Origin: Imbricaverruca yamaguchii
Taxonomy: Eukaryota; Arthropoda; Thecostraca; Neoverrucidae
Length of the DNA: 64,000 nt
Direction of reading: 5' to 3'
NCBI GenBank assembly: GCA_034440575.1
Contig: JAOTOL010001641.1
Coordinates: 2,940,001-3,004,000 of the forward strand
Shown here in pieces: positions 2,901 through 61,459 of the stretch (positions are counted from its first letter, which is position 1; the number at the start of each line of letters is the position of its first letter). Under the pieces are notes generated by a model. That model saw nothing but the letters and a program-made list of their open reading frames with translations, ran no database searches and was not told the origin of the DNA. Both the position numbers and the translations under genes were made by a program.

Positions 2901-3296
2901 GGTCAACACATTGTGGTTGAATTGTACTGCCACGGCTAGCCTTTCAATCTCGTCGCGATCTCTCGGACCAGCGTGGATCTGTGTTAATGAGGTATCACGA
3001 TCCCATCCCACTCGGTGGCCGGCGCCGCTGGACACCGCCTTAGATCATTAGAAACGGCCTCACAGACGATGACAATGCTCCTAAGGAGCCAGAAGTCGTG
3101 GCGGCAAGTCCAGAGGCTCAGACGTGGTCTGAGGAATTTCCGCTGAATAATCCTCAGCCGAAGTCAGAGGAACGTCCTCGAACGCTTACTGAGAGCAATA
3201 TCTATTCATTTAATTTGGATTTTTAACAGCCTTCATCACAATATTGTATCAAAATGAAAGCACCATTAGTTCGAATACATTGCTTTATAGCTGTAC
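2900..3296. other. Unassigned spacer before the 67-bp array
   Basis: Short minus-strand frames may be upstream parts of the LINE remnant. The last ~100 bases (about 3190-3296) turn AT-rich just before the tandem array begins. No gene is visible. Confidence 0.4.
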
Positions 3297-4788
3297 TTAG
3301 GTGGCGCCAGTCCAGCTGGTACCGACCAAAGGCTGGCCACCCAGCCGTCGGTCACAGCGGTACTTAGGTGGCGCCAGTCCAGCTGGTACCGACCAAAGGC
3401 TGGCCACCCAGCCGTCGGTCACCGCGGTACTTAGGTGGCGCCAGTCCAGCTGGTACCGACCAAAGGCTGGCCACCCAGCCGTCGGTCACAGCGGTACTTA
3501 GGTGGCGCCAGTCCAGCTGGTACCGACCAAAGGCTGGCCACCCAGCTGTCGGCCACAGCGGTACTTAAGCGGTGCCAGTCCAGCTGGTACCGACTAAAGG
3601 CTGGCCACCCAGCTGTCGGCCACAGCGGTACTTAAGCGGTGCCAGTCCAGCTGGTACCGACCAAAGGCTGGCCACCCAGCCGTCGGTCACAGCGGTACTT
3701 AGGTGGCGCCAGTCCAGCTGGTACCGACCAAAGGCTGGCCACCCAGCTGTCGGCCACAGCGGTACTTAAGCGGTGCCAGTCCAGCTGGTACCGACTAAAG
3801 GCTGGCCACCCAGCTGTCGGCCACAGCGGTACTTAGGTGGCGCCAGTCCAGCTGGTACCGACCAAAGGCTGGCCACCCAGCTGTCGGCCACAGCGGTACT
3901 TAAGCGGTGCCAGTCCAGCTGGTACCGACTAAAGGCTGGCCACCCAGCCGTCGGTCACAGCGGTACTTAGGTGGCGCCAGTCCAGCTGGTACCGACTAAA
4001 GGCTGGCCACCCAGCTGTCGGCCACAGCGGTACTTAAGCGGTGCCAGTCCAGCTGGTACCGACCAAAGGCTGGCCACCCAGCCGTCGGTCACAGCGGTAC
4101 TTAGGTGGCGCCAGTCCAGCTGGTACCGACCAAAGGCTGGCCACCCAGCTGTCGGCCACAGCGGTACTTAAGCGGTGCCAGTCCAGCTGGTACCGACCAA
4201 AGGCTGGCCACCCAGCCGTCGGTCACAGCGGTACTTAAGCGGTGCCAGTCCAGCTGGTACCGACCAAAACCCAGCCGTCGGTCACCGCGGTACTTAGGTG
4301 ACGCCAGTCCAGCTGGTACCGATCAAAGGCCGACCACCCAGCCGTCAGTCACAGCGGTACTTAAGTGGTGCCAGTCCAGCTGGTACCGACCAAAGGCTGG
4401 CCACCCAGCTGTCGGCCACAGCGGTACTTAAGCGGTGCCAGTCCAGCTGGTACCGACCAAAGGCTGGCCACCCAGCCGTCGGCCACAGCGGTACTTAAGC
4501 GGTGCCAGTCCAGCTGGTACCGACCAAAACCCAGCCGTCGGTCACAGCGGTACTTAGGTGACGCCAGTCCAGCTGGTACCGATCAAAGGCCGACCACCCA
4601 GCCGTCGGTCACCGCGGTACTTAGGTGGCGCCAGTCCAGCTGGTACCGACCAAAGGCCGGCCACCCAGCCGTCGGTCACCGCGGTACTTAGGTGGCGCCA
4701 GTCCAGCTGGTACCGACCAAAGGCCGGCCACCCAGCCGTCGGTCACCGCGGTACTTAGGTGGCGCCAGTCCAGCTGGTACCGATTAAG
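3297..4788. repeat. 67-bp tandem array, about 22.5 copies, with higher-order repeat
   Basis: The unit runs from GTGGCGCCAGTCCAGCTGG through GGTACCGACCAAAGGCTGG to CACAGCGGTACTTAG. Two main sequence types differ at the start (AGGTGGCGCC or AAGCGGTGCC) and near the end (CCGTCGGTCAC or CTGTCGGCCAC). Two units, near 4235 and 4495, lack 8 bases and are 59 bp long. The stretch 4168-4427 is repeated at 4428-4687 with a 260-bp offset (67+59+67+67), a higher-order unit. The many 65-66-codon frames span exactly three units because 67 is not a multiple of three, so each ends at the next in-frame TAG. They are not genes. Confidence 0.97.
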
Positions 4789-4789
4789 A

Positions 4790-6630
4790 GGCAGCCGCCC
4801 GTGTTATGACCACGTCGCCATGCCACGTTATCTACGCGCCTCAAGACCGGGTGCTGCATGGTCAGCGTCGTTACGATATGGACCTCGTGCTAAACGTTTG
4901 CATTCGGTATACACTGAGAGGGCGGGTTGTGACGCAAACAAGTATCGTGACAAAGCAGGGCGCCTATGCTGCTTCGGCAATTCGCCATGGTGTAATTAAG
5001 TTTGAGATACGCACAACATATTTGGCAGATGAGTTAGATTTCGGCAAGATTGCAACGAATTTTGACTGAATCGGATTGTTTTTGACGCACATACACGTAC
5101 ATTGGAGGTGTTGATGCAAGTACATTGGAGGTGCTGATGTATATAAATTGGAGGTTCGATTTTCACATTCGTCTCCACCGCCGGATATGGGGCACGCATC
5201 CATAACGTGGATGCACGGTGCAGAATCGGTTGGGAGTTCGGGGGCATCCACTAAGATAAATAATTTCGCAGAGATGCAGAATCGTTGAAATTCGTTTTAC
5301 TTATTTGGAAATCTCTACACTGCAACACAAACTGGACGCAATAAGGTGCATATCTACACGGGTTGCTTGTCGAGGTATAGTGTTCAATCCTGTGCCATTA
5401 GCAAAACCGCAGCCCAGCTTCAGGGCCGCATAGCCACAAGACTCAACGTGAAAAGCTTCGAAAAGTCCTCTTTCCTTTGCCTGACCATCACGTAATTTAT
5501 TGTCACATATTACAGTACGACACGTTATACTAGCTTAACATCAGCAGCAGGTGCAGTAAGACATGACTATGTCAGATTCGTTTCAATTCTGGGTATTGAT
5601 ATGTAATGGCCTCGTATGACAAGATCAGAAGGTAATGGAAGAGCTACAGTTGACTTTAACAGAGCCAAGTTCTGGACTTTTGAGCTCCCTTCATCAATGA
5701 GAAATTCAACTTAACTGAAGGATGGACAATCATGTGAGGTATCAGGAACCTCACAGTTAACATTTTTATTGTTAGAAGAGGCCCTGAAACGTATGCACCT
5801 TCTTTTTGAACTTCAATAAACACTTCAAACCATGCAGTCCGTAAAATCAGCTTTCAGCTGTGTGACTTCAGCATAGAAACCTATTGAATTCATGTAGCAC
5901 CACGAGCATGGCAGCTACAAGAAGCTCGGTGTGTTTCGTCGGTTTGGTGACTCTATCAGCTATCTAACGACCAACGAGTAGGCACTTTCCACCATCAGCC
6001 TTGTCAAATGCACGGCTGCGTAGCTAGATTAGATTGTGCCACCACAATCATACTGACATCATTACTTACGCATCAAAGACTCTGCACAAACTCACACTAA
6101 TTGCATCATTCGGAGATCTTGTTAGGCCAGAGTATCCGGGCTGTTCAACTAGCTTCCCAGGGCATATGGTATAAGTTAGGTTCAGAAACAATCTTTTCTG
6201 GTGTACATCTCAACAGCGAAATGGGGCCTAATCAACAAACAAAAAACAGCTATGCAGCTGGGCTGTGAGCGTCCTTAGCGACTGATCTTTTCGCTGAAGT
6301 TACGCTTACTTCGCATCACCTACATACATGCAAGGCTGGTAGGCACAGAGCGCTTCCGTCTCCCCTAAAGTATGGGTCGGAGATAGCCATCTCTTGTGGA
6401 ACTGCCTTGGCCGTGTCCCTGAGTTCGAGAGAAATAAGTCACGTTAGGTTGCAAACACATCACACAGTGCCATGTCGAACATTTAACAAAACGCTCATTA
6501 AAAACTCCCCTCGGGGTTCCTAGAGATTGACATCCATGGTCCCAAATAAGCACAACGTAGCCTCAAAAAATCGCATCAAGATCGGGCAAAAATGAAGCTG
6601 AAGCTGGGGTTGCTTTGATCGAACAGGGCC
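4790..6630. other. Gene-free sequence
   Basis: No exon or RNA gene is recognised. A short local duplication built on ACATTGGAGGTG lies at about 5098-5155. The rest is unique-looking, moderately AT-rich DNA with no frame over 95 codons. Confidence 0.5.
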
Positions 6631-14500: not shown

Positions 14501-14664
14501 GCTATTGAAAAAGGTTTCCCCGTCTGACAGTCTATGATATACAGTCTCGCAACACGCAGAAACATTGCGGAACAGCATAACTGATAAACAACTGGCAGGT
14601 GTGTCTCATTTCCTGTTAAATGAGACTTTCTCATTTTGTCTCATGTTCAAGTTATTGCTAATGT

Positions 14665-14699
14665 GTGTGTGTGTGATTGTGGTTTTAGGGCGCATCGAT
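14665..14699 (-). mobile_element. Truncated copy of the micro hairpin element, with 15-bp duplication
   Basis: The 35-base insertion ends with GGTTTTAGGGCGCATCGAT, the tail and first hairpin arm of the short element described at 61386. It is flanked by perfect copies of AGTTATTGCTAATGT (14650-14664 and 14700-14714). The part missing would be the 5' end if the A-rich side is the 3' tail, as expected for incomplete reverse transcription. Confidence 0.75.
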
Positions 14700-14742
14700 A
14701 GTTATTGCTAATGTAGGTACTGTTCAGATGCACTTATGTTGT

Positions 14743-16958: not shown

Positions 16959-19900
16959 ATTTTATCCGGCTCTGCTCTACCGCTCCTCCTGTCCGTCACT
17001 GCCGAAATGCTACCACCGGTCTTTGCTGATGCCACCAGAGAATTTCTATGCTTAATCTAATATATTTACCTTTACATACACCGCATCTCATTACGCACAC
17101 ACACACTGCTCATACTCTTCTCGCCATCTCTGACACCTTCGTCCACTTCCTCCCCATCCTGAACTTATCCTATTTGCCCCCCCCCCCATAAGAGAGGTCA
17201 CCCCCAGCAATGAATTTGGTGAGAAGGCAGAAGCTGCGGAAGAAAATTGCTTTTGCTATTGCTTGATAATATTGCTTGATGCCAGATTTTGGCGGGTTTG
17301 GGTGAAAAAAAATAATGCGAGACGACCGAAGAAACTGGTTTGCGTTGAACCTTGACCGGTAAAGTGGTAAAGTGAGACCTATGTAGTTCCTTCCAGCGTG
17401 ATTAGTACAGGCAGAAGCATTCGTGGTAATTGATTCAAACGATCATAAATCCGTCGCTGAATGCCGATGCCAATACATATACTCATCTTGCGAACTCGTT
17501 GAATACGAATAGGAATACGACGTTAACTTGACGTACGTCCTTAAGGCTGCCATGACTTCCCCCAATAGTCTTCAAGGTAACCAAAGATACCCAGAGTCAC
17601 ATTTGTTCAAGATATATCAATATATGAGCAAGGGAATGCAACCTAAGACGCATGCAGCCCTGCGATAATGCAAATTTGTTGCCCAGCAGAGCACAATCTT
17701 GCACCCAAGCAAAAACAGAAGATGGTCAGGGTTCAAGAATGTTATTGTAATGTGATTCAAGAATTGGCTGGAAGGAGAAATTTTTGACGTCTGCCGATTT
17801 ACCATTCCGACATTTTGTGACGACAGATAGGCTGTGAAGACCGTTGATTGGCTAGATCGGCTTTTAATATTTTTGGTGATTATCTTGCATGCATATTTTC
17901 ACTTTATAAATAACTATAATTTTAAGTATAATTTTGCGGCGATGATACTCAGGTAGCTGAGTATCATCTTCGAGTATCATCTTCTTCGCATCCCCCCAGC
18001 CACTTCGTGTGACACGAAACAAATTGAGTGGGACAAATCATCACTTTTCACAAATTTACGTGGACATGTTCCCCAGCCCTCAATGGTTACACCCATGCCC
18101 ACGACAAATATACGTGTGCTGGTAGCTCCGTCATAAAAACGCAGTGTCTCGCCTCAGCCTACAACGACCATCGGATGACAACATCTTGGATGCATAGTCT
18201 TTAAAAACAGCTACCTGAACATGAGGATTAAATTATTTTCGATAATGTAAATCACTATTTCTGGTGTGGCTCGTGCATTGGCCGATGGGTCTTCAGAATC
18301 ACGTTTACTGAAGGTCGCTAAGGGCGTTCGCGAAACTTTCTGAGAAGAGTATTACTGCGCACGCTGCAACTGCTGATGGTAACTACTATATTTGTTGGAT
18401 CTGTAGATGACGTGCGCAGTTGGTTTAAACGCAAAATTGCCAAAACTCGTGTGGTACGTATCACATGTGACCTCTGCGACATTTAATTCAACAAGAACGA
18501 TTTTTGTTTCAGACATATAATGCAGTTTTCTACACCATCACAAAACCATATTAAGTGCTTTTTACTTCTAAATTCAGTACAGGCATATCTACTCAATCGT
18601 AGACACAGTGAACGAGCATCCAGGTCATGACCAAGTCCCCTTATCCTATAGCGATCCAGTGTTTAAGAAAAGTGCACAATACGGTTTTGCGAAATCGAAG
18701 TACATATACTGAGAAGAATAAAGTTGAAAATTATACACAGGTAACGAAAATAAATTACTAGATCAATGAAACTATTCTAATTCCTATCACGCCCCAACTT
18801 CAAAATGATTTTGCTACGCCTGATATTTTATCCAAGGGATGATTATGGAACTGCGAGTGGTCCGGCCACCTGTTAGCTAGTGTACATGCTCTAATTCAGT
18901 TGTCAGCACCGAGTCTGCTGCACCGCTGATCCATTTTGACGAAAACGCGAACATGATCTTCTTCTATTGAGGATGACACGAAATACTGGTTCGAGAAGCT
19001 GCTCAAGGATTGTGAAGTTTGCTTAGTGACAATTACGGAGTATTTTTATATAAGAAAGAATGCAAACCGGGTTCAATGTCTATTTTTTGGCGGTGAACAC
19101 AAAATGTGGCATATAAGGTATTACTCACCCATCTTAGAAAGTGGAGAGCCATGACACCCGGTCTTCCATTCTTTCGCATATCCTTTCCATAATGCAAATT
19201 ATGCCTTTTTAAGGAACCCAGCATCCTCCCTCAGTATCGGGTAGCGTATTGCCCTGCGAGTATGTTTAATCATCACACCGTCACATCGAGCAGGTGCTAG
19301 AGTTTAGGTAGGGTTTTCACCTACTGCAGGAGGTTCAAAATTGTTTTACCTACTGAAGGTCGCTGCCTAAGAGTTGAGGCCTTGACATACTGCAAGGAGG
19401 TTTACATTTTTTCGGCACCAAAAGTTGTATATTTTTACCACCCGAACGGGCCGCCAAACTTCCAGCCAGCTCCCGGCCACCTTACCCGTTCCTTTCAAAT
19501 AATTGCCCCGAAAGCACACGCGAGTGGCGCTGGCGCCCAAGATCAAACGGGCGGTTCCGACAACAACAGGCAGCGAACGCGAGTAACGGCCTGGCACCTT
19601 CAGCTGGCAGAGAGGGGTCCAAACACCAGCTGGACCACCTCCGGCAGAAGGGTAATCGGCCCGTGAGGTCGGCGACCACGCGCAGGAGAACCTTCTAGAA
19701 CGCCATGAAGGCGCCGGGCGGCAAAGGCCAAACCCAATCAAAAGCGCGAGCTCACCGCGAAGCCCTGGTAGTAGGTACAGCAAAAAAAAAAACGAGGCAG
19801 GGCTATAGTAAATTGAAGAAGGCAGAACAGGACAGACGCACAGTGTCCTACAATTACTTCACCATTAACTGTGTGGATGAAGAAAGAAGTTGCTTGGGAA

Positions 19901-20626
19901 TAATGAAAGATTGGAAGAAAATAAAGGATCGCCACATAAGGATTAAAAAAGCGGAATGCCTTTCACTTCAGTCACATGCATTTTTCATTATTTAGCAGTC
20001 GTGTGTATAATGACTGCCCACACATGTGGCAAAATTGTAAAAACCTAAGACAAGGATGAAATAGCACAATTCCATTAACTGTGAATTTCCAGGCCACATG
20101 GTCAATTATTTTACACTGCAGACGCAAGAGGAGAGACGCAGAGGGGACTGGAAGACGCGCGGCGGTGGACGCCGGACCGACGCCTCAGGGGCGTCCAGCG
20201 GTGGCCAGATGGCTGGAGTTTTCGGACGGAGGAGATGAAGTGTTCAGCTGAAGCCACTCGACACTCACCATCGGGCATGTGAGTGTTACACTTCTGACAT
20301 GTCTTCCTCTTTCCCAAACCTTTCCGAACCAATCTAAATTTTCTTCCGCAGCTTCTGCCTTCTCACCAAATTCATTGCTGGGGGTGACCTCTCCTTTTGG
20401 GGGGGGGGGGCAAATAGGATAAGTTCAGGATGGGGAGGAAGTGGACGAAGGTGTCAGAGATGGCGAGAAGAGTATGAGCAGTGTGTGTGCGTAATGAGAT
20501 GCGGTGTATGTAAAGGTAAATATATTAGATTAAGCATAGAAATTCTCTGGTGGCATCAGCAAACACCGGTGGTAGCATTTCGGCAGTGACGGACAGGAGG
20601 AGCGGTAGAGCAGGGCCGGATAAAAT
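16959..20626. mobile_element. Element or duplication bounded by near-identical ~290-bp inverted repeats
   Basis: 16959-17256 and 20337-20626 are reverse complements at well over 95% identity, including a poly-C/poly-G run (about 17178-17188 and 20399-20410). They differ only by isolated changes and a 2-base change in a CA run. The 3.08 kb between them has no transposase-like frame. It contains a dispersed repeat (19841-20130) that also occurs at 58166. The arms could be long terminal inverted repeats of a non-autonomous transposon or a recent inverted duplication. I see no convincing target-site duplication outside the arms. Confidence 0.8.
19841..20130 (-). repeat. Dispersed repeat family R2, copy 1
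   Basis: The reverse complement aligns over ~290 bases with 58166-58456 at roughly 85-90% identity. Shared blocks include CAGTGTAAAATAATTGAC, TTTCATCCTTGTCTTAGG, GGCAGTCAT, CATTCCGC and CACACAG-TAATGGTGAAG. The match ends sharply at both sides, so this is a repeat unit. It is non-coding as far as I can see. Confidence 0.9.
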
Positions 20627-30561: not shown

Positions 30562-30590
30562 TTGTTGGTTAGTTATTTGGGCTTAGGGGC
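30562..30590 (-). mobile_element. Partial copy of the micro hairpin element
   Basis: GGTTAGTTATTTGGGCTTAGGGGCGC matches the tail and first arm of the element at 61386; the second arm is missing. The word CTTTGT lies on each side (about 30555 and 30588), too short to be sure of a duplication. Confidence 0.6.
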
Positions 30591-30764
30591 GCTTTGTGAT
30601 TTGGTTTTGCAATGAAATGTAAGTTTCAAAGTTTTGCAGTGCAGTATGTTCCAAATTTGTGACTTGGTATGTCAGATTGCTCATCAAACGGGTGATCCGA
30701 TTGATCGCCTCGGGGTTTGTTTGTATTTCCGCGTTGGTATGGTTCATGAGGGATACATATTCTC

Positions 30765-30817
30765 GGTTGGTTATTTGGTTTTAGGAGCGCATGGACTGCG
30801 TTGGCCATGTAGCGCCC
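30765..30817 (-). mobile_element. Micro hairpin element, copy with 14-bp duplication
   Basis: A 53-base insertion into the envelope-like gene reads GGTTATTTGGTTTTAGGAGC...TGTAGCGCCC on the plus strand. GGATACATATTCTC (30751-30764) and GGATACATTTTCTC (30818-30831) flank it, a 14-base duplication with one mismatch. It interrupts the envelope frame and so postdates the retroelement. Confidence 0.85.
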
Positions 30818-31017
30818 GGATACATTTTCTCCAAGGTCGCGAACTATTTTGTCCTTTTCATTTTCCAAGGCATCAAGTCGGCTGAGGACGGCTTCAAGAT
30901 CTGCGTCGGTAGCGGTACCGAACAAAAAAGATGAGGCATTTCCAACGAAGGGCAGGACGGATCGCTTCGGTCTACGATTGTTCAGAATAATTGAATTGGC
31001 TGTCAGGATGGTAGCAT

Positions 31018-31182
31018 TTGGTGGTGGCTGTTGGTTTTACGACACGTCGACCGTTCCGACGTGTAGCGTCGTCAATCTCTCACGCCGATTGGTCGCGGGC
31101 GAAGAGTAGCGACAGGTGAGACTCGAACCCACAACCTTTCGATTGTGAGACGAGCAACTTACCCCTAGACTACTCGTCCCCA
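31018..31182 (-). mobile_element. tRNA-derived SINE, family C (tRNA-Val-like head), 11-bp duplication
   Basis: On the minus strand the head is GACGAGTAGTCTAGGGGTAA, then a CTCACAA loop that would place CAC as anticodon, then GTGGGTTCGAGTCTCAC (intact T-arm). The anticodon stem has two mismatches, so it is a tRNA-like SINE head and not a working tRNA gene. The 165-base insertion is flanked by perfect GATGGTAGCAT copies (31007-31017 and 31183-31193). It interrupts the envelope-like gene. Confidence 0.9.
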
Positions 31183-32399: not shown

Positions 32400-33868
32400 T
32401 TAGCCATCTGAAGTTCCTCTATGTTTTTCCAATTTTACTAATATGCCCTGGAATTTTACTTCTCTGCTAAGCCCTTCCTCTGGTTTTCTGAACTCGGTTT
32501 GGCGGAGATCGCCCATGGGAACACGGTCTGAATCGACAACATTTACGGCTTGATCGGATTCCCGCATTCTGCTGAGATGGTCTGCAAGGACATTTTTGGT
32601 TCCTTTGGTATATACTACCTCATAGTTGTGCTCTGAAAGCATGATAGCCCATCGTTGCAATATGGGATTTTTCATTTCTAACAGGTTCAAGGTCAGCGGA
32701 CGGTGATCAGTCAAAATGGTGAATTTCGATCTTAACAAATATTGGCGTAATTTCGAAATTGCCCAGACTACAGCATAATCCTCGAGTTGTATCACTACCC
32801 ATTTACGATGTGTTTTGTTAAATTGTTTCAACAAGTATTGTACCACTCTTTCGGCATCTCCGTGTTCCTGAACTAAGACCGCACCAATGGCTTCTTGGGA
32901 GGCGTCCGTGTACAACTTGTAGTCTTTCGTGATGTCAGGATATGCCAGTACTGGTGCTGAAGCTAACTTGTGTTCAGCGTTTCGAAAGTATGTTCACACT
33001 CGTCGGCCCAATCAAATTTCGCATGTTTCTTCGTGAGATTTATAAGTAGCGCAGAGATTTGACTGAAGTTAGGAATGAAGCGTCGGTAGTATAAACACAT
33101 ACCGATAAATGAGCGGACTCCCGTTAATCGGACTTCTTCGAGATGAGCCAAATGTTCGTCAAACGTTGTCGAGTATACTATTATATCATCGATGTAGGCA
33201 GTTGCAAACTGATTTTGAATTCCAGACAGCTCTTTATTGATTAATTCCATGAACCTGGATGGGGGGTTACAAATTCCAAACGGCATTTTGCGAAAATTCC
33301 ACAGGCCTAGAAAACACGTGAATGCTGTTTTTGGGATGCTCTCCTCTGACATCGGAATTTGCCAATAACCAGCTTTCAAATCCAAAGGCGAAAATACCTT
33401 CGCACCTATCAGAGGCAAGGATGTCCTCAATGAGGGGGAGTGGGTAGCTGTTTTTCTTGGTCACCTTGTTCAATTTTCTGAAGTCTATTGCGAAACGGTT
33501 GCTTCCATCTTCCTTGCGAACAATCACTATAGGGCCGCCCATGGGCTGTCTGATTCTTCAATGATTCCAGCTTCTAGTATTACTTTAATTTGTTCTCTAA
33601 CATATTTTCGCTGGGAGAATGGCGTTTTGTAAGGGGCTTGCCGGATCGGTGGGTTATTTCCAGTGTCAATGTCCATTTTGATGACATCAGTCGTTCCCAG
33701 GTCTGCGTCAGTCGCGGCAAATAAGTCGGTGTTAGAATGTAACAGCTGGTGCAGTCTGTTTTTCTCAGTGCCAGTCAGATGAGTCAGTTTGGCTTGCTCG
33801 AGTGGGTCAGAGGGTGCGGTTGGGGGTGTCAGGTCAGTGACCTGGGACAGGTCAACAGGGTTTTTCAA
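32400..33868 (-). pseudogene. Gypsy-type reverse transcriptase and RNase H
   Basis: From right to left: the RT palm start with a Lys-Glu-Asp-Gly-Ser-Asn-Arg-Phe block (about 33515), a Pro-Leu-Asp-Leu-Lys-Ala-Gly-Tyr-Trp-Gln region (about 33385), the catalytic Tyr-Ile-Asp-Asp (33186-33197) and an RNase H domain (32915-32400) with Tyr-Thr-Asp-Ala-Ser, Thr-Asp-His-Arg-Pro-Leu and Ala-Asp-His-Leu-Ser-Arg blocks. These are standard for Ty3/gypsy Pol. Frame changes near 33430-33500, a short loss after about 33140 and a break between RT and RNase H near 32940 show decay. Confidence 0.9.
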
Positions 33869-36250: not shown

Positions 36251-36263
36251 GGGCCCTTTTCCG

Positions 36264-36442
36264 GGGCGGGGATGGCCGAGTGGTTAAGGTGTCGGGCTAT
36301 GGGTACCAAAGGTCCCGGGTTCGACTCTAGCGCCACTCAGGACATTTCCCAATCCCGCGGCCCACCGGCGAAACAGTGTGGGCGGCGCCATTAGACGTGA
36401 ATGTGCATAAAGTGTGTCGTGAACCAACCAATAACCAAACAA
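36264..36442 (+). mobile_element. tRNA-derived SINE, family A, copy 2
   Basis: The head GGGGATGGCCGAGTGGTTAAGG and the B-box-like CCCGGGTTCGACTC are followed by the same body as at 47850 and a CCAATAACCAAACAAAG tail. It sits directly against the truncated LTR end. No clear duplication is visible. Confidence 0.9.
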
Positions 36443-37665
36443 AGAAAGGGCGCTTTGCCAGCGGGGGTCTGGAACACCTGCACACAGCTCTGGACACCGC
36501 TCAAGACGATTCGTCACTCTCTGATTGGCTACTTAGTAGTGACGTATTTTGAGCTCCGATTCCAAGTGGTAGTCAAATGACGTTTCACTTCCGAGTTAAC
36601 CCGACGATGCCACCTGGTGACGAACAGTCAGGTGACATTTCCCGCAGACGACCCGGCAACGCGCCCGGCCATTGGACTTTAAACTCGCGTTCGGCCGCTG
36701 CCGCGGCGCGGGTCGTCGGCAAGCCACCGGCCGGCTCAAGTTCATGAGTTGCATGTCGGCTGGCTTGCGGGGTCACAGCATTTATAGTTATAGACCAGCA
36801 TTATGGTGCTATGCAAGTATATATATTTTACGTTGAAAACAGTACATTTTTAGAAACTTTGTTATAAATGTTAGGTATAGATCAATTGACATCTTTCCTT
36901 GGTAATAACTGCCTACTCAAGGCTTGCGGTCGTACTTGTTCTTTAGAGGATGGCAGGCGACGGCTTTGACTGTTAGTTAGTAATTTGTTTTTAAAGTGTG
37001 CATCGACTGCAATGGTCATATAGCGCCCATAACAAGTTTATCCATGAAAAGTCAGTAGTAAAATCGTAATCATAATCGCAGAACAGCGTCATGTCCACGT
37101 GATTATTTCCCGCATACTGTCCTAGTCAAAACATTCCTTCGCAATCAGCCTATTAGAGGCATGGTGTGGTGAGATTGAGAGGTGTTGGTGATTAACGGTC
37201 AGGGCGGTCTTCTATCCCACACGTCTTGGCTTACAGGTGGGTGCCTCGTCACGGGTCAAACAGCGCGGTGACGAGACCTGGGGTCCCTTCGGTCGGTGGC
37301 GAGATAGGCATTCGCTTGCGGCTTGTAGATGGTATGATTGGTTGGCCTATTAATGGGACGGGGTGGAGGCGGACCCACTATTTCTCCACAGAGGCCAGGT
37401 GGCGCGCGGTACCGACGGTGAGTGCATTTGCTTACCGAGCCTTGCGGCCATGGAGGATTTTCCCATAACGCCTTTCCCACCGATCAAGCTGGATCAATCA
37501 CTTTCAATACCCTTGAAAAGGCATCTTACCACATACATTTGGCATTTCCAGAAATAAGTGACTTCAATTGTGGATAATCTGCAATTTTGGTTGTAAGGTG
37601 GACATATTTCATATCATGACCCCATTGTTTAGTGACCCTACAGAACATTGTCAGTTATTATAATA
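36443..37665. other. Gene-free sequence between SINE and LINE
   Basis: CpG-rich to about 37460, then abruptly CpG-poor. A degenerate micro hairpin element lies at 36975-37028. No exon is recognised. Confidence 0.5.
36975..37028 (-). mobile_element. Micro hairpin element, older copy
   Basis: GTTAGTAATTTGTTTTTAAAG...GCATCGACTGCAATGG...TATAGCGCCC matches the family. The first arm has decayed (GTGTGC for GGGCGC), and no flanking duplication is left. Confidence 0.75.
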
Positions 37666-37669
37666 CTAT

Positions 37670-39254
37670 GTGGTCAGCAAAGAATGCCCCACCCCCTATA
37701 CTTGGCAGCAGCATGCTAACCCATGCTATTTTTCATCATTATTAAAACACTTAACACACAGGAAAATAAAGCCAAATAAGGCAACAGGACATGATGAAAT
37801 TTATGCTAGGGTGTTGCGGGAAACTGAAAAGGAACTGGCATTTCCACTTAGTACAATATTTTGTAGATCAGTTTCACATAATGAAATTCCAACCGATTGG
37901 AAAAGGGCAAATGTAGTTCCCATTTTCAAGAAAGGAGAAAGAGGGAAAGTTGAAAACTATAGGCCAATAAGTCTCACATCCCTAGTCTGCAAGGTACTCG
38001 AATCAATTATCAAGGATAGAATAGTTAGTTATCTGGAAGGTAGCAGATTGATTCAAGATACTGAACATGGGTTTAGAAAAGGACGATCGTGTCTCACAAA
38101 CCTCTTGGACTTTTTTAACTTCGCCACAGAACAATTTGATCAGGGAAATCAGGTTGATGTAGCATATCTTGACTTTAGTAAGGCCTTTGACAAGGTACCC
38201 CATAAACGGTTAATTATACAGCTTCAGTCCCATGGTATTGCAGGTAGCATCTTAAAATGGATAGAGTTGTGGCTTTCAGATAGACAGCAAAGAGTGATGC
38301 TAAATGGTACAAAGTCATCATGGCAAAATGTTCTTAGTGGAGTCCCCCAGGGGTCAGTACTAGGGCCATTACTGTTCATTATATTTGTAAATAACATTGA
38401 AAGTGGCCTAAGCAGTAAAGTTTTGAAATTTGCGGATGATTTGAAGGTCTTTAGGGCAATAACAGGATGAGCATGTCTCGCTGCAGAAAGACTTAGACGA
38501 ACTTGTGAAGTGGTCCGAAGAATGGCAAATGAAATTTAACTTTGATAAGTGCAAAATCATGCATGTAGGTAAGCAGCATATGAAGGCTCCATACTTGATG
38601 GGTGGCCAAGTGCTATCAGTGACTCAACAGGAGAAGGATTTAGGTGTTACTCTAAACACAAAACTGGGGGCATCAGAACAGACCAAGGAAGCCAGGACGA
38701 AGGCACTGAGAATGCTCGGGGCAATAAATAGGAATGTATCCTACAGAAGTGAGGAAGTGATCAGGAAGCTTTACTGTGCATATGTCAGGCCACATTTGGA
38801 ATACTGCATCCAAGCTTGGTCTCCTGGCTATGAAAAAGATTGTTGGCTTTCAGAGAGAGTACAAAAGAGGGCTACAAAAATGGTTAATGGCATAAGCAAC
38901 CTGGCATATGAGGAAAGATTTAAGAAATTGAATATGTTTTCACTTAGATATAGAAGGCTGAGAGGAGACCTCATCGAGGTCTTTAAATTTGTCAATGGTC
39001 TGGAGAGGGGATACCTTGGGGAAATGTTTGAATTTAACAGAAATGATGCAATTAGAGGTCATAAATTCAAAATTAAAGTTAACCACAGCAGAACAAGGTT
39101 AAGGCAAACTTTCTTCACCAACAGGGTAGTGGAACACTGGAACCAGCTGCCAGAAAACATCGTCAGTAGCAGCACGTTGAACATCTTTAAAAACAGCATA
39201 GACAATCATTATAAGAATAGAGGGCTTGCTTTTCAGTATTACAGGGAGGGCTGA
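37670..39254 (+). pseudogene. CR1/L2-like LINE reverse transcriptase, 5'-truncated, one frameshift
   Basis: The first frame (to about 38468) covers RT motifs: Ile-Pro-Thr-Asp-Trp-Lys-Arg-Ala-Asn-Val-Val-Pro-Ile-Phe-Lys-Lys-Gly, Asn-Tyr-Arg-Pro-Ile-Ser-Leu-Thr-Ser, His-Gly-Phe-Arg, Leu-Asp-Phe-Ser-Lys-Ala-Phe-Asp, Gly-Val-Pro-Gln-Gly-Ser-Val-Leu-Gly-Pro-Leu-Leu-Phe and the catalytic Phe-Ala-Asp-Asp. A one-base shift near 38465-38472 moves the reading to the second frame (to 39254), which holds the thumb and the C-terminal domain (Arg-Pro-His-Leu-Glu-Tyr, Ala-Trp-Ser-Pro, Val-Gln-Lys-Arg-Ala). The endonuclease is missing. The Jockey/CR1/L2 group assignment is from these motifs. The sequence is CpG-poor. 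Confidence 0.9.
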
Positions 39255-39360
39255 TTGACAGATTTGGTGGGCAACTGGTTCAGTGTACAGAGTGCAACCA
39301 AGAAGGGCCCTTGTGGCTCATAGTTGCACTAATCTTTTATGTCTTTATGTCTTTTACTTA
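39255..39360 (+). repeat. 3' end of the LINE with TTTATGTC repeats
   Basis: The short 3' UTR ends with CTTTTATGTCTTTATGTCTTTT. Short terminal tandem repeats in place of a poly-A tail are typical of CR1/L2-type LINEs. Confidence 0.75.
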
Positions 39361-42145
39361 GGGTGTTGTATGCATAGGGCATTGTAAGAACCCTCTAGGG
39401 GTTTTCCTGACAGTGAATGGCACAGGCCCCTGGGAGTGATGGTCATGACTCTCTTCCACCACCCTCACTTTCCTACACCTATGGTGTGCATCATAGTCAT
39501 GGCACATATATGGGCCATGTTCAGAGATCAGTAAATGTCACATTAGGCAAACAGCACAGAACAGCAAATAAGTGCATCCATACACCCACACACACATGCA
39601 AAGGGTTTTTAAAGAATCCATCCTTACCCATCAACCCCTCCCTCCCTCCCCCAAAAGATACATAGTCCAAGAAAAGACACACTCCACAAGTAAGTTGCCT
39701 CAACTTTCAATAATTGAAATTGTATTTTGTTAGCTAAGAACCTAACCTAAAAAACTGTTTATTCTTAGCTAGTTATTTGGGTGCATCAACCAAATTGTTT
39801 TCTCTGATTGGGACAGTTTTTCTCTCACTACCTATGACTTTGGACCAAATTGCAAGCACAAAGAATGGTATGGTTCATCACCTCACCATACCCAGAATCG
39901 GACATCAAGATATAGCTTACACAACAAATTCAACCTCTCACCACTGTAAGGAAGGGATTTCTCAAGAGCAGCATGTTTTGCTCCTCAATTGAGATACGTC
40001 TCTGCATTCTATCAAGATGAGCTTCCTGGACCCTGTGTGGTAGTCGATGCTTCCTGCCAGCAGAACCATCTTGTCATGAGCATGTTAGCACCACAGACAT
40101 CAATACAATTAGGTGTGGCATAGTGGAAAATGCATCTAGCAGCATCAGTGTACATAAAAATATTTCATAAACATATATTTGTAGTTTTATGATAAAGCAC
40201 ATAGAAAAGCAATGTGTCCATAATAGCCAAACATCAGCATTGTGAAGGAAAGAGGGTCCATTTGATACCAGTCATGTAGTATGATAGAGGGTAGATGGTA
40301 CATTACCAAAGCTAAAGTCACCTGGCAATGGTATGAGCACAACAGTTTTTGGGGGTTGATAAGGAGCGGCATTAACTGATGTATCAGACTCTAAAATTGC
40401 TTAGTCACATGATAATGACTAACACAATGGGTGTGATAATGAGCAAGATGAACATGAAATAGCATATACACAACAGTTTCAGATCATGGAAACCAAATAA
40501 TCACATGCTATAGCTTCCTAGTGTAAACTTCCAGGCCATGGCAGAGATGAGTTGATGCATCATGTCACAGGTATAATTTTGGCTATATGTTCTCCATCCA
40601 AGGCTAGAAGACATTTTTGGAGCTGCACATCAAGCAGAGGAAAGATACCCATTAATCAAAACAGTCAACCTATCACCTTCAGCACATTTGCCTCTGAATA
40701 GGTACAAAGTTATATTTTTATAATGACTAAGGCTGGTTGTGTCATTTCTTCATAAAAAGAAGCCATATCTGTTTTTCAAACCAGACCATCATATGGCTCC
40801 ATGTGAAGCTTTTCTTTACAGGAAATGTTTGATGCAAAGTGCCACTGTTCTATTGCATGTGCATGGTAAACAAAGTAATGCTAACATTTTCAACCCCTCC
40901 ACATCAGGCCACCAGTATGAGGCCACCAAAATTAACAGCTCTAATCCATAACTTTGGAATCAATGCCATAGATACAACACAAGACCAGCATTTAATGTTC
41001 CACTTACCCTGTCCAAATATTTCCATTAGGCACTTTCTTTCTTAACAATGTGATAGCCAACCTCATGGTGACAACTGTGTTTTGCAACAATTTCAGCAAT
41101 ATAGTTATAATATCCAATGCTCAACTGAAACACATGTGACACACATTAGTCACATTTTGAACATATGCTACAGATAGGAACATGGCTATATCTTAACATA
41201 GTGAGCTGGCAGTGCATAGTATAGGTACAACAGGGTACTACCTACATCAGATGGGAAGACAAAGTCAGACTGTTGACTCAAAGCTGAAGCCAAAATAAGG
41301 TCATTAGATTGAAGCTGAAGCTAAAGCCCAAGACAGCAGTAAATAAATGTTAAGTGGCCGAACAAACATTAAGGCAATAAAGCTATAAAGCCAACACCAA
41401 TGTCAAAATGCATGGCTTTGCAGAGCCAGCCACTGATCTTTAGCCAACCAGATGAGAGGCCAAAGTGAACTCTGCTTTATGATGTAAATTGAGTGAATTC
41501 AATACTTCTTAAATTGATTAACATTGGCAACAATCAGGATCACACAAAGAAAAATGTCTTGCTTAGTCTAAAAAAATTGACCTTGGGTCAGAAGAGACCA
41601 CTGGCATTGCATAGCCAACCATCAGTCATAGGACTCTACTAAAAATATTGAGGTAATGGGCAGTGGGTGTTGATCAAGGGAGGTGGCTTAAGCATGGGTA
41701 AACTTGAAGTATTACCCCTCACACTTTCTCTATATCAACAATGCATCCGAGTCACCATCAACTAAGTACCCAACTTTGATCATGAGTTAGTTATTTGAGT
41801 TTAAGGGCGCTTCGACCAAAACGTGATCATTTAGCGCCCATCTGATCATGAGTAAACATCAGTAAATGAGCAGTTGATATTTTACGGATGCTAGGTAGGA
41901 AGGGCATTACACATAACTAGAGAAGAATATAAACACAAGGATACAAAAATATACAAGGATGCAAGAATGCACCCCCTAAATATTTACCGCACAATTTACT
42001 GACTTCTAATACTATTTCCCGATACTTATTTAAAGCCAGGACTATGAACTTGAAGCTGAAGCAACATGCTAGGAAAACAAAGCTAGCATCTAGTATGTTT
42101 TCTAGTTTCAGCCCTAGGACGGAAGCAGGAATGTGCGTGATTTCT
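39361..42145. other. CpG-depleted gene-free sequence
   Basis: For about 2.4 kb CG dinucleotides are rare (often none per 60-base line) while TG and CA are common. No exon is recognised. A partial micro element (TAGTTATTTGGGTGCATCAACC) lies at 39769-39790. Confidence 0.6.
41788..41842 (-). mobile_element. Micro hairpin element, copy with perfect 11-bp duplication
   Basis: A 55-base insertion (TAGTTATTTGAGTTTAAGGG...TTTAGCGCCCATC on the plus strand) is flanked by perfect TGATCATGAGT copies (41777-41787 and 41843-41853). It keeps CpG sites inside CpG-poor DNA, which fits a recent insertion. Confidence 0.9.
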
Positions 42146-43380: not shown

Positions 43381-44714
43381 ATATATCCAAGCCTCTCTAG
43401 CACCATTCACCGGATACTGCCTATCACACTCCTCAATAATTCAAAACTGCTCCAATCTTGCCCCATTGTGTTACCAGAGCGAATCTCATCAGCATCACAT
43501 ACAGAAAGTATGTGTGTGGTATCACATATGTTATGACAGATATATCCAAGGTTCAATATCCATTGCCCAGCACATGGAAAGCATCAGATGACACCAAAAA
43601 GTTAGGATATTTGACATGACCTTTACCTCACTATCTGCTCTCTAGCCTTGTGTGAAGTAAGAAGAGGGCAAGGTATTTTGTAAGAGTGAGTGGGAAATAT
43701 CTACTGATGCAGGTTATTAGAATTGAATCAAAAAGTATGTCTGTGTCAGTATTCCTGTCACAGTGGATTCAGAGCTTCAAGGACAGTATCAAAAGGTTTA
43801 AAAAAAAAGAAATATCCTCATTTCCAGTTATCATACTTTTGTCAATTCAATTTGCTTGTGAATTACCATGTGCAATTAATGCCATTTTCTTACTGGTGTG
43901 CTGGGCACTACTTGACCCATGTAATTGATGTGCCATAAAGCCCAATAACCAACTCTTACTGGGGTGCATATGCATTGGAACATTCCAGGCACATTGTACA
44001 CTTGGGATAAAAATTGCACCAACTGCAGTGCAAAAGATGCTATTAAGGAGAGGATTTGTGGCCAAACATGCCTAAAAAGACTAATAAAGCATTAAGCCAC
44101 CTCTTTTGTGACAAGTAATGTGCTTTTTACTGGGATAGGAAATATTTTCATCATTTGGTAGGAATACCTAGTAGTAATGTTGGAGAACAGAATTATGTAT
44201 ATGTGATCTTCTCTTATTCCAAAATGGTGTGGAAAAGGGGCTGAAACATTTCTACATGCATTCATACTGGCATTACAAGCTTCAGTACACTGGATATTCA
44301 ATTTAAGGTCAATTTCAATTGAAGTACCATCAGTTCAGGGAGGGGATTAGTCACCTCGTGACCTCACTCTGGGATGCACCCATGGTCAGTGCTTTCAACA
44401 GGCCTTCAAAGGCAGGTTGAAAGTGGTCTTGATCAAGGCCAAGGAAAACTCATACAAATAGTTGCTGAAGTAGTGAACAACATTTTTCATTAGTACCCAT
44501 TATTATTTTATGCTAAGATGAGTAGTAACAACTTAATTTTGCACTGCAAATTGCCCAACATATGTCACCATCGTTCCAAAGTCAGTGGACTTCAGCCCCT
44601 TTCCTTCTGTTCAAATTCTTCAGAAATTTCCTGCAAGTTTTTGAACACCCTGACATTTTGTGTAGTTGATTGCATTTATGCATGTGTGCATACATGCATA
44701 CTTACATACATACA

Positions 44715-47849: not shown

Positions 47850-48027
47850 GGTGCGGGGATGGCCGAGTAGTTAAAGTGTTGGCTCCGGGCACCAAATGTC
47901 CCGGGTTTGACACTAGCGCCGGTCGGGATATTCTCCAATCCCGCGGCCCACCGGCAAAACAGTGTGAGCGGCGCCATTAGCCGTGAATGTGTATAAAGTG
48001 TGTCGTGAACCACCCAATAAACAAACA
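47850..48027 (+). mobile_element. tRNA-derived SINE, family A, copy 3, with perfect duplication
   Basis: The head GGGGATGGCCGAGTAGTTAA, the B-box-like CCCGGGTTTGACAC, the shared body and a CCAATAAACAAACA tail form a 178-base insertion. Perfect GCCTGTCCCGA copies flank it (47839-47849 and 48028-48038). This copy defines the family's ends. Confidence 0.95.
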
Positions 48028-53796: not shown

Positions 53797-55884
53797 ATTA
53801 TGACTGACAAAGGTACTGGACAATCGAACAAACCAATTCATCCTGGTGATGGAATCCGGACCGTGAGGACAACAAGCGTGTTCCGTGCAGTTAACTTTGA
53901 GCTCTATGCAAAGCCGGTAAGCAAACTAGTCGAAATGTTCCTGAAGGTATGGTTCATTTTTGAAAATTCCTGCTGGTAAAGGTGCATATTATAAAAGATA
54001 CTTGTCAGGTGTATTTGGGGAAAGTCCTGTAGTGCATCTGTGTATCATGACTGGAAATCCCACACCTGCGTGATTGAGGGTTTAAGCCAATGGTTCGACC
54101 GGCAGGATAAAGCTAGTTTTGTCAGCCATTCGCGAGAGATGGCTGATACTACTATATGTTTGAGATGTATAGTAGTATTAGCCATCTAATATATTTGTCG
54201 CCTGATAGATGGTGTGGCAATAGCATGAACAAGATATGTCAAGAAATAATATACGGATGTCGTGGGTCCCTGCAGTTGATTATTAAATGGATTGCGTTGA
54301 TGAGGAATTTCCATTTTGAGTGATATTCAAAAGAAATGTGGATAAAACGAAGATGATGCCTATTCAATGACGCTCTGTTCAAACTTCAAATGCGCGTGCG
54401 GTGTGTGTGCGTGCGCGTGTGCGTGTGTATGTGTATGTATGTATGCATGTATGTATGTGTATATGAGTTTGCTGCCCCGGTAGGTCAGTTGGTTAGAGAG
54501 CTGGTCTGCACTGGTCTCCCCTTTCCTGGCAACGTAGGGTTCGAGTCGCTTCGCGCGCTCGCATTTAGCCCCCAGCTAGGAGTGTCAGTTGGCAGCTGGC
54601 CCGATAATGCCGGGGACGAGCTACCGGGCGGCCGTGTCGGTGCATTGACGGCACGTTAAACTTTCGGTCTAAATTCTGCCGTTGAACTGGTATTCATGGA
54701 TAGGGTGGTGGGGTCAGGGTTCACGCAACAAGCTCTGCTTAGCTATAGAACCCTGGTTCCTAAAGTCACCCCAGGGACAACTCGGATTAATTTTTGTAAT
54801 GTGTATGTATATGAATGTGTGTAAATGCATGTGTGTTATGTAGGTTATTATTATATTATCTGCATGAATATGCTATTACTCCTGTGTGATTATAGGCAGG
54901 GAGCAGTCACAATCAAATTGTGCGCCTCCTGATTTTGATGACATTTTGGTGTCCTGCTTGATGTATGCAGTTTTAAATGGCTAAAATCAGTTAAGTTACT
55001 GGCATGCCCAGCATTAATTTTGACTTTTGCCAATCTCCTTGTTTGTTATGTGAACTTACCTTACATATGATTGTCATGGCAAATGGTTTGCGTACGATTG
55101 TTGGTACTCAGAGTAGTCGTGAATCAATGTTGAAAATCTGGGACATTCTTTGATTTATGTGGACCCAGATTATTATGCCCTTCAGAAAAACTTGGTGTTT
55201 TGTTATGTAATGCACCATTGCTGCTTCAAAATCACTTGCATCGAGGCATCTATATGCTCAGCAAAACTAGGGAACCGCAGTGGCACACCCAGCCAGACCA
55301 CTTTGGCAGGAACGGAAATCATGTTGGGAAATCACATCTGGAGGCTCAATTTATGTTCGTGACAGAGGTACCGTGCATATGGAAACGATATTACCAAGTT
55401 TTACTTTTGTCTTCTGAGCAGCGCAAAAGAGGTACTCCTTGTAGCGTAAAAATTGTGCATATCGATTATAAAGTGACAAAAATTATACAATCCGGGCCGA
55501 ATCCTGAAGCGCAAAATCCAACTTTATCGTGTAGCTTTGATTTGTGGTTTGATGCAGGTTGTGGTTTGAAGAGTGCTTGCAGTTCATGGATGCCGTTTCA
55601 GACGTAGACTGCCTGCCTGGGACTGACATGAATGCAACCATGTTTGTCATCTGAATGAAGATATTTGCCACAACTTGCATTTCACAGCTTTTTAATTTGG
55701 TGACGCTACTTCTCCCACTTTTCAGAACAAGATGGTGATGACCCTGGGCGCCGTTGCAATAGCTGGCTGTCTCGGTTACCTCGCTTACATGAGATCACAA
55801 GTCGACCTGCAGAACAACTACATAGCAGAGGGTGACAGCGGTGAACACTTCATCAGGCCGAAGAAGTCGAAGTGGGACATGTGA
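53797..55884 (+). CDS. SMIM8: Small integral membrane protein 8 homologue (two coding exons)
   Basis: Coding exon 1 is 53800-53916 (ATG after a TTCAG acceptor at 53796; ends at a GTAAGC donor, phase 0). Coding exon 2 is 55726-55884 (acceptor CTTTTCAG; TGA at 55882-55884). The protein is 91 residues, close to the ~97 of vertebrate SMIM8. The family signature is present: Val-Arg-Thr-Thr-x-Val-Phe-Arg-Ala-Val-Asn-x-Glu-Leu, Lys-Pro-Asn-Lys exactly across the splice junction, one hydrophobic helix (about residues 42-60), and a C-terminus Arg-x-Lys-x-Ser-Lys-Trp-Asp. It is a one-pass membrane protein of unknown function. The intron (1.8 kb) holds a tRNA-like SINE and a hairpin. Any upstream non-coding exon is not identified. 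ATG14 begins 43 nt after the stop. Confidence 0.88.
54137..54187 (+). ncRNA. Intronic hairpin, 20-bp arms (possible small RNA precursor)
   Basis: AGATGGCTGATACTACTATA pairs with TATAGTAGTATTAGCCATCT around an 11-base loop, with one G-U pair. It lies in the SMIM8 intron on the sense strand. It is short for an animal pre-miRNA, and nothing shows that it is expressed; it may be only an inverted duplication. Confidence 0.25.
54390..54470. repeat. TG/TGTA microsatellite
   Basis: Imperfect TGCG, TGTG and TGTA repeats directly before the tRNA-like SINE. Similar TGTATGTATA words follow it at about 54800-54830. Confidence 0.85.
54472..54815 (+). mobile_element. tRNA-derived SINE, family D
   Basis: The head GCCCCGGTAGGTCAGTTGGTTAGAG (A box) is followed by AGGGTTCGAGTCGC (B box), with extra bases between, so it is not a working tRNA. 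The body of about 250 bases includes AACTTTCGGTCTAAATTC and ACCCCAGGGACAACTCGG. It sits in the SMIM8 intron between TG-rich microsatellites. A target duplication cannot be judged there. Confidence 0.7.
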
Positions 55885-55927
55885 TCTGGCCGTCTTGCCC
55901 GCGTCTCACAATAGTCAGTCCATCCCA

Positions 55928-57292
55928 ATGGCGGCTCAGCTGGGCGGCAGTCGACTGTCGGGCTCCACCTCCATGGACGAGCTGCGCAGCTTCATTCGCA
56001 TCGAGCGGTGTCCGCAGTGCGAGCGAACGGCCAGGAACTTCTACTGCCGCCTGTGCGTGCGCACGGGTGACTTCGGCCACTCGCGCGACGCCCGACCCAC
56101 CCGATTCGCCGACCGCAAGCTTCAGCTGTTCCGTCTCAAGCACGAGGTCATCAACTACGCCATCGCCGTGGAGGACGTGACGGCCGCACAGCGCCAGGAT
56201 CTTCTGCGCTGCGAGCGACGGACGGCCACCCGCAGGCGCATCCAGCTCATCCAGGCGGCGATCGGGGAGCGGCAGGCGCGTGTGCAGCAGCTGCAGGCGC
56301 AGCTTGACGCCGCTCGTCGCGCCTCGCACAAGCTGCAGGACCGACGGCCGCGCACCCGGCTGCGGCTGGACGAGCTGCGCGCGCGCTACGAGTCGTCACG
56401 CGTGAGCACCGGCCGGCTGGCGGAGCGTGTGGAGATCCTGAAGCACGCACTCAAGGGCAACGTGCGCGGCAACGTGCGTCAGCTGGTGTCAGTGGTGTTC
56501 CCCGTGACGGAGGTGGCACCGCAGCCGGGCCTAGACCGTCCCGCCTCGGCGCTCTCCGAGACCGAGGTGGCGCTGGCCGAGGCGCAGAGTCTGGCGTACG
56601 TGCGCGGCCGGTGGGTGTACTTGGAGCACGCCGGCGAACTGCAGTACCGCGTGGTGGCACCGACGCTGCCCGGCTCGGGCGACTACTCGGCGTACCACGT
56701 GTGGGCGGCGGCGCAGCACGACCAGGGCGTGATCGCGCCGGGCGCCGTCCAGCCCAGCCAGGTGCACAACCTGGCGGCAGCGCTCACCTACACCGCGCAG
56801 CTGGTCAGTGTGCTCGCCTTCTACATGGACGCTCGGCCGTGCAACCGGCTCTGCTACAGCGAGTTCTGCCGCTACCAGATGACTGAGCGCGAGTTCAGCC
56901 ACCGCGTGGCCAAGCTCAACGCCAACCTGGTGTGCCTCTGCCTGCAGGCGGGCGTGGACGTGGCCGGGCTCGAGCCGCGCCGCACCGCCTACAACCTGTG
57001 CCAGCTGCTGGACGGCAACCTGGATGCGCGCGAGCCGGTGCAGCCGCCCGACGCGCTCCTGCGCTCCATGGAGGACTCGATGCGGGCCGACCTCGAGTTC
57101 GTCGACACGCTGGAGGAGAGTGAGACGGCGACGCAGCAGACGCCGCCGGACGACGCTGACTGGGAGCAGGTGCCGAGCGAGGTGCCCACCGGCGGCGAGG
57201 TGGACGCGATCGGGTCAGCCAGCGTGGCGGCTGGACTCGTGTCAACGGCGGCCGCCAGCGTCGCCTCGTTCCTGCGCGGCTTCAATCGGTAG
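55928..57292 (+). CDS. ATG14: Beclin-1-associated autophagy regulator ATG14/Barkor homologue, single exon
   Basis: 454 residues. It targets the class III PI3-kinase complex (Vps34-Vps15-Beclin 1) to sites of autophagosome formation. Seen in order: a CxxC-x8-CxxC pair (residues 28-43) as in vertebrate Barkor; an Arg/Leu/Gln-rich coiled-coil region (about 60-185) that should bind Beclin 1; a Val-Phe-Pro-Val-x-Glu-Val block (about 198); a conserved Gly-Asp-Tyr-Ser-Ala-Tyr and Ser-Glu-Phe-Cys region; and a C-terminal Ala/Ser amphipathic segment ending in a Phe-Leu-Arg-Gly-Phe tail, as in the membrane-sensing BATS domain. I chose the ATG at 55928; the frame is open upstream only into the end of SMIM8. 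It is strikingly GC-rich and without introns. No AATAAA is found close downstream. Confidence 0.93.
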   Translation: MAAQLGGSRLSGSTSMDELRSFIRIERCPQCERTARNFYCRLCVRTGDFGHSRDARPTRFADRKLQLFRLKHEVINYAIAVEDVTAAQRQDLLRCERRTATRRRIQLIQAAIGERQARVQQLQAQLDAARRASHKLQDRRPRTRLRLDELRARYESSRVSTGRLAERVEILKHALKGNVRGNVRQLVSVVFPVTEVAPQPGLDRPASALSETEVALAEAQSLAYVRGRWVYLEHAGELQYRVVAPTLPGSGDYSAYHVWAAAQHDQGVIAPGAVQPSQVHNLAAALTYTAQLVSVLAFYMDARPCNRLCYSEFCRYQMTEREFSHRVAKLNANLVCLCLQAGVDVAGLEPRRTAYNLCQLLDGNLDAREPVQPPDALLRSMEDSMRADLEFVDTLEESETATQQTPPDDADWEQVPSEVPTGGEVDAIGSASVAAGLVSTAAASVASFLRGFNR

Positions 57293-61162: not shown

Positions 61163-61385
61163 CTACCGAGATAGGCAGACATCAGACGCCGACACAACGA
61201 GCAAACAACTCGCAGCTGCACACGATGATTTACAGACAATACGCGTGACCTTCAAATAGGAAGAAGATACATCGCTTTAGTATTATCTTTGATTATCCCA
61301 GCGATAACCGTTCTTGGTTATGCCGTTATTTGAGAAATTCCCGTTGATTCCACATAAATGCACTGCCATTTGGCACGAACACAGT

Positions 61386-61444
61386 TGATCGATTTATTAT
61401 TTGGGCTTAAGGGCGCGCCAACTGCAAGGTCATTTAGCGCCCAT
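61386..61444 (-). mobile_element. Micro hairpin element, reference copy, perfect 13-bp duplication
   Basis: A 59-base insertion (plus strand TTATTTGGGCTTAAGGGCGC...CAACTGCAAGGTCATTTAGCGCCCAT) is flanked by perfect GCACGAACACAGT copies (61373-61385 and 61445-61457). GGGCGC and GCGCCC pair as an outer stem. In some copies an inner GAC/GTC stem also pairs. Read on the minus strand it is a hairpin followed by an A/C-rich CCAAATAA tail, like a minimal SINE. Confidence 0.9.
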
Positions 61445-61459
61445 GCACGAACACAGTAT

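Follow-up and report, generated by a model that had tools for sequence, protein, structure and literature searches.

Hairpin-only insertions in the genome of the barnacle Imbricaverruca yamaguchii are the 3′ terminus of a LINE coding for RNase H

According to PMC4176376, stringent-type LINEs such as UnaL2 and ZfL2 carry a 3′-terminal stem-loop followed by short tandem repeats, their proteins bind their own 3′ stem-loop, and a SINE with a related tail is found in the same genome. The barnacle LINE described here resembles them in all three sequence features, the conserved 3′ stem-loop, the repeat tail and the accompanying SINE; UnaL2 and ZfL2 belong to the L2 clade, whereas the barnacle LINE carries RNase H. 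The short insertions reported below also share the traits of 5′-truncated LINE copies, namely the LINE 3′ end, the tail, target-site duplications of variable length and a missing 5′ part. Truncation points of such copies are normally spread, whereas the young copies here mostly end 0–2 nt from the hairpin foot. With SINEs they have in common that they are small and non-coding and have a LINE-type tail and their own duplications, but they measure 50–60 nt, lack a tRNA, 5S or 7SL head and contain nothing of their own besides the LINE 3′ end. We know of no hairpin-only product class described for stringent-type LINEs. Nothing on a hairpin-only LINE class was found among the titles and abstract openings listed from the open-licence PMC literature.

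The window is a stretch of 64,000 nucleotides (positions 2,940,001 to 3,004,000 of contig JAOTOL010001641.1). An initial annotation had proposed short insertions with target-site duplications at 61386, 41788, 30765 and 14665, and all four were confirmed together with their repeats. It had also listed older or partial copies, of which those at 36975 and 30562 were found by a profile search while those at 39769 and 62277 were not profile matches. At E ≤ 0.1 this search returned six copies from the window (61386, 41788, 36975, 30765, 43902 and 30562); those at 14665, 39769 and 62277 were missed at this threshold and are known from the sequence alone. When up to 3 mismatches are allowed, a 20-mer is present 4 times in the window, versus 0.01 expected. 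The features are as follows.

61386–61444, − strand: hairpin-only copy of the LINE 3′ end, young sub-family; 59 bp; profile E 3.5e-17; duplication GCACGAACACAGT on both sides
61373–61385: target-site duplication of the 61386 copy, first copy, GCACGAACACAGT; 13 bp, perfect
61445–61457: target-site duplication of the 61386 copy, second copy, GCACGAACACAGT
41788–41842, − strand: hairpin-only copy, TAAC-tail type; 55 bp; profile E 8e-16
41777–41787 and 41843–41853: duplication TGATCATGAGT of the 41788 copy; 11 bp, perfect
30765–30817, − strand: hairpin-only copy, TAAC-tail type; 53 bp; profile E 8.3e-15
30751–30764 and 30818–30831: duplication GGATACATATTCTC / GGATACATTTTCTC of the 30765 copy; 14 bp, one mismatch
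14665–14699, − strand: copy starting inside the hairpin, with a different, CA-rich tail; 35 bp; no profile match at E ≤ 0.1
14650–14664 and 14700–14714: duplication AGTTATTGCTAATGT of the 14665 copy; 15 bp, perfect
43902–43953, + strand: fifth hairpin-only copy, absent from the initial annotation; profile E 6.9e-5
43888–43901 and 43954–43967: duplication TCTTACTGGTGTGC / TCTTACTGGGGTGC of the 43902 copy; 14 bp, one mismatch
36973–37030, − strand: older copy with GTT before ATGGGCGC; profile match; no duplication at the foot
30566–30593, − strand: partial copy, 3′ arm and tail only (annotated at 30562); profile E 3.3e-4, model positions 29–56
31025–31181, − strand: tRNA-headed SINE, about 158 nt, abundant, with a tail resembling the LINE hairpin; 32 profile rows in 264 kb

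The young unit reads, in RNA sense, ATGGGCGCTAAATGACCTTG[T/C]AGTCGGCGCGCCCTTAAGCCCAAATAA(TCAA)n. RNA sense corresponds to the − strand at 61386, 41788 and 30765 and to the + strand at 43902, which makes CCAAATAA(C)TAAC the 3′ tail. The unit is indeed a hairpin plus a tail, as had been proposed: five sequences fold into a 6–7-bp outer stem, an internal loop and a 4–6-bp inner stem (−13.5 to −18.7 kcal/mol, z −1.75 to −4.57), and the TCAA/TAAC tail follows the hairpin. Across 24 diverse copies, 92.9% of cells are paired versus 32–54% when the alignment is slid, and two-sided changes occur in 4 of 10 pairs; against shuffled columns the paired share is just slightly higher (91.1%, reached by 2 of 500). 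For the copy at 36973–37030 a duplication was found neither at the hairpin foot nor within 3 kb upstream. The GTT before ATGGGCGC is also present on longer copies, and this copy may thus be the end of a longer, older LINE copy. No duplication was found for the partial copy at 30566–30593.

The tiny hairpin insertions of 50–60 bases are real mobile pieces. A set of 71 young copies with different edges was drawn from the window, from 60 short flanks and from 20 stretches of 10 kb surrounding genome matches. An abutting direct repeat of at least 7 nt is present in 58 of them, and 54 score at least 9, versus 1 of 351 pairs when downstream flanks were swapped. This agrees with the earlier proposal that a piece of about 55 bp is itself mobile and has its own duplications. 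The repeats measure 7–22 nt with a mode of 13. They place the start of the insertion at −2 in 26 copies, −1 in 10, 0 or +1 in 7, −3 in 4 and farther away in 11 (n = 58). Four of the 13 copies without an edge repeat of at least 7 nt are long copies (L025, L027, L061 and L096), and nine are unexplained. When old and young profile matches are taken together, 38 of 68 (from 69) score at least 8, versus 0.8% of swapped pairs. Immediately before the left nick, 44 of 53 copies have a pyrimidine; judged from this nick only, there is little further target preference. At one locus (L058) a hairpin copy is joined by a tail-to-tail inverted partial second copy.

These insertions do not represent an independent element. 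The hairpin and its TCAA/TAAC tail together form the 3′ end of a LINE that encodes RNase H, and in longer copies the same hairpin continues into a 3′ UTR and an ORF. The first genome search yielded 40 scored matches (the window copy, 20 and a further 19 fetched copies), two of which, L025 and L027, have 33 nt more in common upstream, with duplications that begin 46 and 154 nt ahead of the match to the hairpin; the other 37 fetched copies, partly judged by reading, show no LINE sequence upstream. When the genome was searched with the stretch from L027, 294 candidates were obtained; 40 of them were scored, and all 40 extend to 142 nt before the stem. Among 12 long loci compared with L030 as the reference, similarity ends at seven different points in seven, and in four it persists up to the locus boundary. 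L036 and L037 each have a 520-codon open frame that ends about 80 nt before the stem, and the frame of L036 matches RNase_H with E 3.1e-9. The same layout is seen in older sub-families: L015 has its hairpin at 235 and LINE coding sequence at 311–817, with a 14-bp repeat lying 530 nt upstream, and L009 has LINE coding sequence from 9255 down to 7403 and a hairpin at 7116. Both the young sub-family and sub-family B have a long LINE form of their own. Among the 120 matches listed for the LINE protein, the crustacean relatives are from Amphibalanus (54 and 55%) and Pollicipes (53%). A placement in the I superfamily is no more than suggested by RNase H, the reverse transcriptase domain lying outside the fetched loci.

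The initial annotation had treated the unit as a separate mini-element moved by a LINE. The first part of this claim is not borne out; movement by LINE machinery looks right. It had also named, as evidence against itself, the end of a longer element always cut at the same point and having the same neighbours: the longer element and the common cut point are found, but not the common neighbours. Neighbours that differ, together with a target-site duplication of its own each time, indicate that each copy is a separate insertion.

Other elements of the window were recorded as well. A different LINE fragment (37664–39251, + strand, with RVT_1 at 37664–38467) was considered as the source and rejected, as no such hairpin was seen on reading 39200–39900. 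An LTR-type RNase H fragment lies at 32403–32993 (− strand), with an adjoining RT-like frame at 32966–33460. A second tRNA-like SINE family (GGCCGAGTGGTTAA...), the tail of which ends in the CCAATAACC type, is found at 1959–2082, 36263–36441 and 47850–48027. Inverted repeats at 16959–17248 and 20337–20626 (72–146 nt, 96–99% complementary) are about 3.1–3.4 kb apart, and a tandem array at 3155–4912 has a 67-bp unit, with some units of 59 bp. An ATG14 frame (55826–57289) is 74% identical to that of Amphibalanus amphitrite, the next match being at 44%. The GC content of the window is 38–62% in 2-kb steps; that of Pollicipes pollicipes is 52.3% (PMC8917513).

The 5′ ends of the copies form a spike 0–2 nt before the hairpin stem. 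Exact counts were made over the whole assembly (767,457,503 bases, 1,430 contigs), the reversed pattern giving 0 each time; such counts favour young copies. The 5′ half of the hairpin, GGGCGCTAAATGACCTTG, has 569 exact copies, of which only 62 (a number that mutated long copies would raise slightly) also have the next seven LINE bases, leaving about 507 (89%) without them. The 18-mer at −33 of the LINE has 65 exact matches, not necessarily in the same copies as the 62. From the first listed of the 569 matches, smaller contigs being listed first, 40 places were fetched: LINE similarity extends upstream for 0–4 nt in 36, for 8 nt in 1 and for at least 84 nt in 3 (31, 1 and 3 after removal of 5 near-duplicates, n = 35). 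Of 32 short copies, 29 agree with the LINE at −1 and 26 at −2, but 8 do so at −3 and 10 at −4; the matches at −3 and −4 are at chance level, and the edge is sharp at −2. Survival deeper into the LINE rests on the counts at −7 and −33, the 40 scored long matches to −142 and the 12 long loci.

Searches with sequences from further 3′ gave a similar picture. The 18-mer of the 3′ arm occurs 954 times in the genome. Twenty of these places that lack the 5′ 18-mer were judged by reading: 16 are hairpin variants ending at the foot or within about a base; three start inside the hairpin (L102, L112 and L119) and one is long (L108), and L101 and L117 look like near-duplicates. The 21-mer of the tail occurs 1,581 times. 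Among 20 of these places without the young 3′ arm, also judged by reading, 12 end at the foot or close to it (L130 and L132 being near-duplicates), four are long (L122, L123, L128 and L134), three start inside the hairpin (L129, L133 and L138), one is ambiguous (L131), and none starts 3′ of the hairpin. The spike is weaker in sub-family B, where 113 of 382 copies are long and up to about 70% are short; six of the 113 are on a single contig, C722 of G000, where eight exact sub-family B hairpins lie on one strand within 57 kb (about 113844–170547), six of them long, as a local cluster or duplication. In 264 kb, 42 profile matches are left after removal of 20 query-selected and 7 SINE matches, 34 of them at E ≤ 1e-3. 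This crudely corresponds to some 100,000 hairpin tails of all ages genome-wide, short and long mixed, from stretches chosen around young copies.

The tRNA-headed SINE permits a comparison. In an Rfam scan of the window at gathering scores, the single match is the tRNA at 31114–31174, inside this SINE and outside the units; a head from a Pol III gene (tRNA, 5S or 7SL) was thus not detected on the units, as the annotation had held. The SINE model has 32 profile rows, including 7 model seeds; 21 span from position ≤ 6 to ≥ 142, and one begins at 115, close to the hairpin. A tail of this kind thus does not keep a template from being copied well beyond it, although as a control the comparison is indirect, the SINE having a differing hairpin and perhaps another partner LINE.

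Identity with the LINE 3′ end, the target-site duplications and the spike of 5′ ends are shown by the sequences. As their explanation we give an even chance to a short stub of LINE RNA that starts at the foot of the hairpin and is copied by target-primed reverse transcription. The source LINE would consist of the RNase H ORF, about 80 nt of 3′ UTR, the two-step 3′ hairpin and the short tandem-repeat tail. The tail would be shielded either by the LINE protein sitting on the hairpin, as happens in stringent-type LINEs, or by the folded structure alone, while the rest of the RNA would be lost through 5′–3′ decay or cleavage, the bound hairpin outlasting the remainder. A bound or structured hairpin can stop a 5′–3′ exonuclease. 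The stub would still be able to prime and would be copied up to its 5′ end, so that the terminal 50–60 nt of the LINE are inserted, and the minority of long copies would stem from intact LINE RNAs. We infer from the position of the ends that a stub beginning at the foot is the usual template: a template ending there predicts the observed ends, whereas ordinary truncation would lead to a spread and a roadblock to ends on the 3′ side of the hairpin. As none of the 20 tail matches starts there, the hairpin is no roadblock from its 3′ side, and this reading was rejected. So was a DNA hairpin element (MITE), given the varying duplication length and the TCAA/TAAC repeat tail beyond the hairpin. Against the stub it must be said that DNA alone does not separate a template ending at the foot from an enzyme always stopping there, that sub-family B is less extreme, and that 13 of the 71 young copies lack an edge repeat.

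An enzyme that stops is the main rival. Reverse transcriptase, held by the hairpin on full-length LINE RNA, would usually release just after copying it, and the few passers would become processive. 5′ truncation is usual for LINEs (PMC13295347), and a sharp edge at a single position recurs in more than one sub-family, as such drop-off would have it. Yet the stop falls after the hairpin has been copied, and ends do not accumulate before it; the number of passing copies does not fall between −7 (62) and −33 (65), and the scored long matches all reach −142; and SINE templates are copied beyond a related hairpin. We regard drop-off as possible but unlikely. The great excess of short over long copies in the young sub-family could also point to an independent mini-SINE, a tiny RNA transcribed from its own source copies that uses the LINE only in trans. 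We consider this improbable and do not prefer it, as the same end is present on long LINE copies: the loop variants TTGT, TTGC and TCGT of short copies recur, by reading, on long ones, each of the two sub-families is matched by its own long form, and the units have no RNA-family match at gathering score. Least credible to us is trimming of the cDNA, in which the first strand would enter the LINE, fold at the hairpin and be cut back to the foot before second-strand synthesis. A structure-specific cut might leave an edge 0–2 nt from the stem, but a folded cDNA end could self-prime and generate inverted duplications, of which the reading of L041–L100 revealed one tail-to-tail case (L058), and the SINE copies are not trimmed likewise.

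A wider view may tentatively be taken, though we lean against it: what this LINE machinery mainly produces would be a remnant of its own RNA and not the LINE. A hairpin-capped stub held by the LINE protein would be favoured as template. Such stubs would add a third class to the retrotransposed RNAs, next to LINEs and SINEs, and may be the smallest retroposons whose 5′ end is defined. It is an old question whether the frequent 5′ truncation of LINEs is a fault of the enzyme or of the template. A truncation point sharp to about 2 nt that is shared by hundreds of exact copies, and by more than one sub-family within a single genome, makes this question directly testable. The units are a natural minimal substrate of 50–60 nt for target-primed reverse transcription, and in genome annotation such hairpin-only units would easily be overlooked or filed as SINEs.
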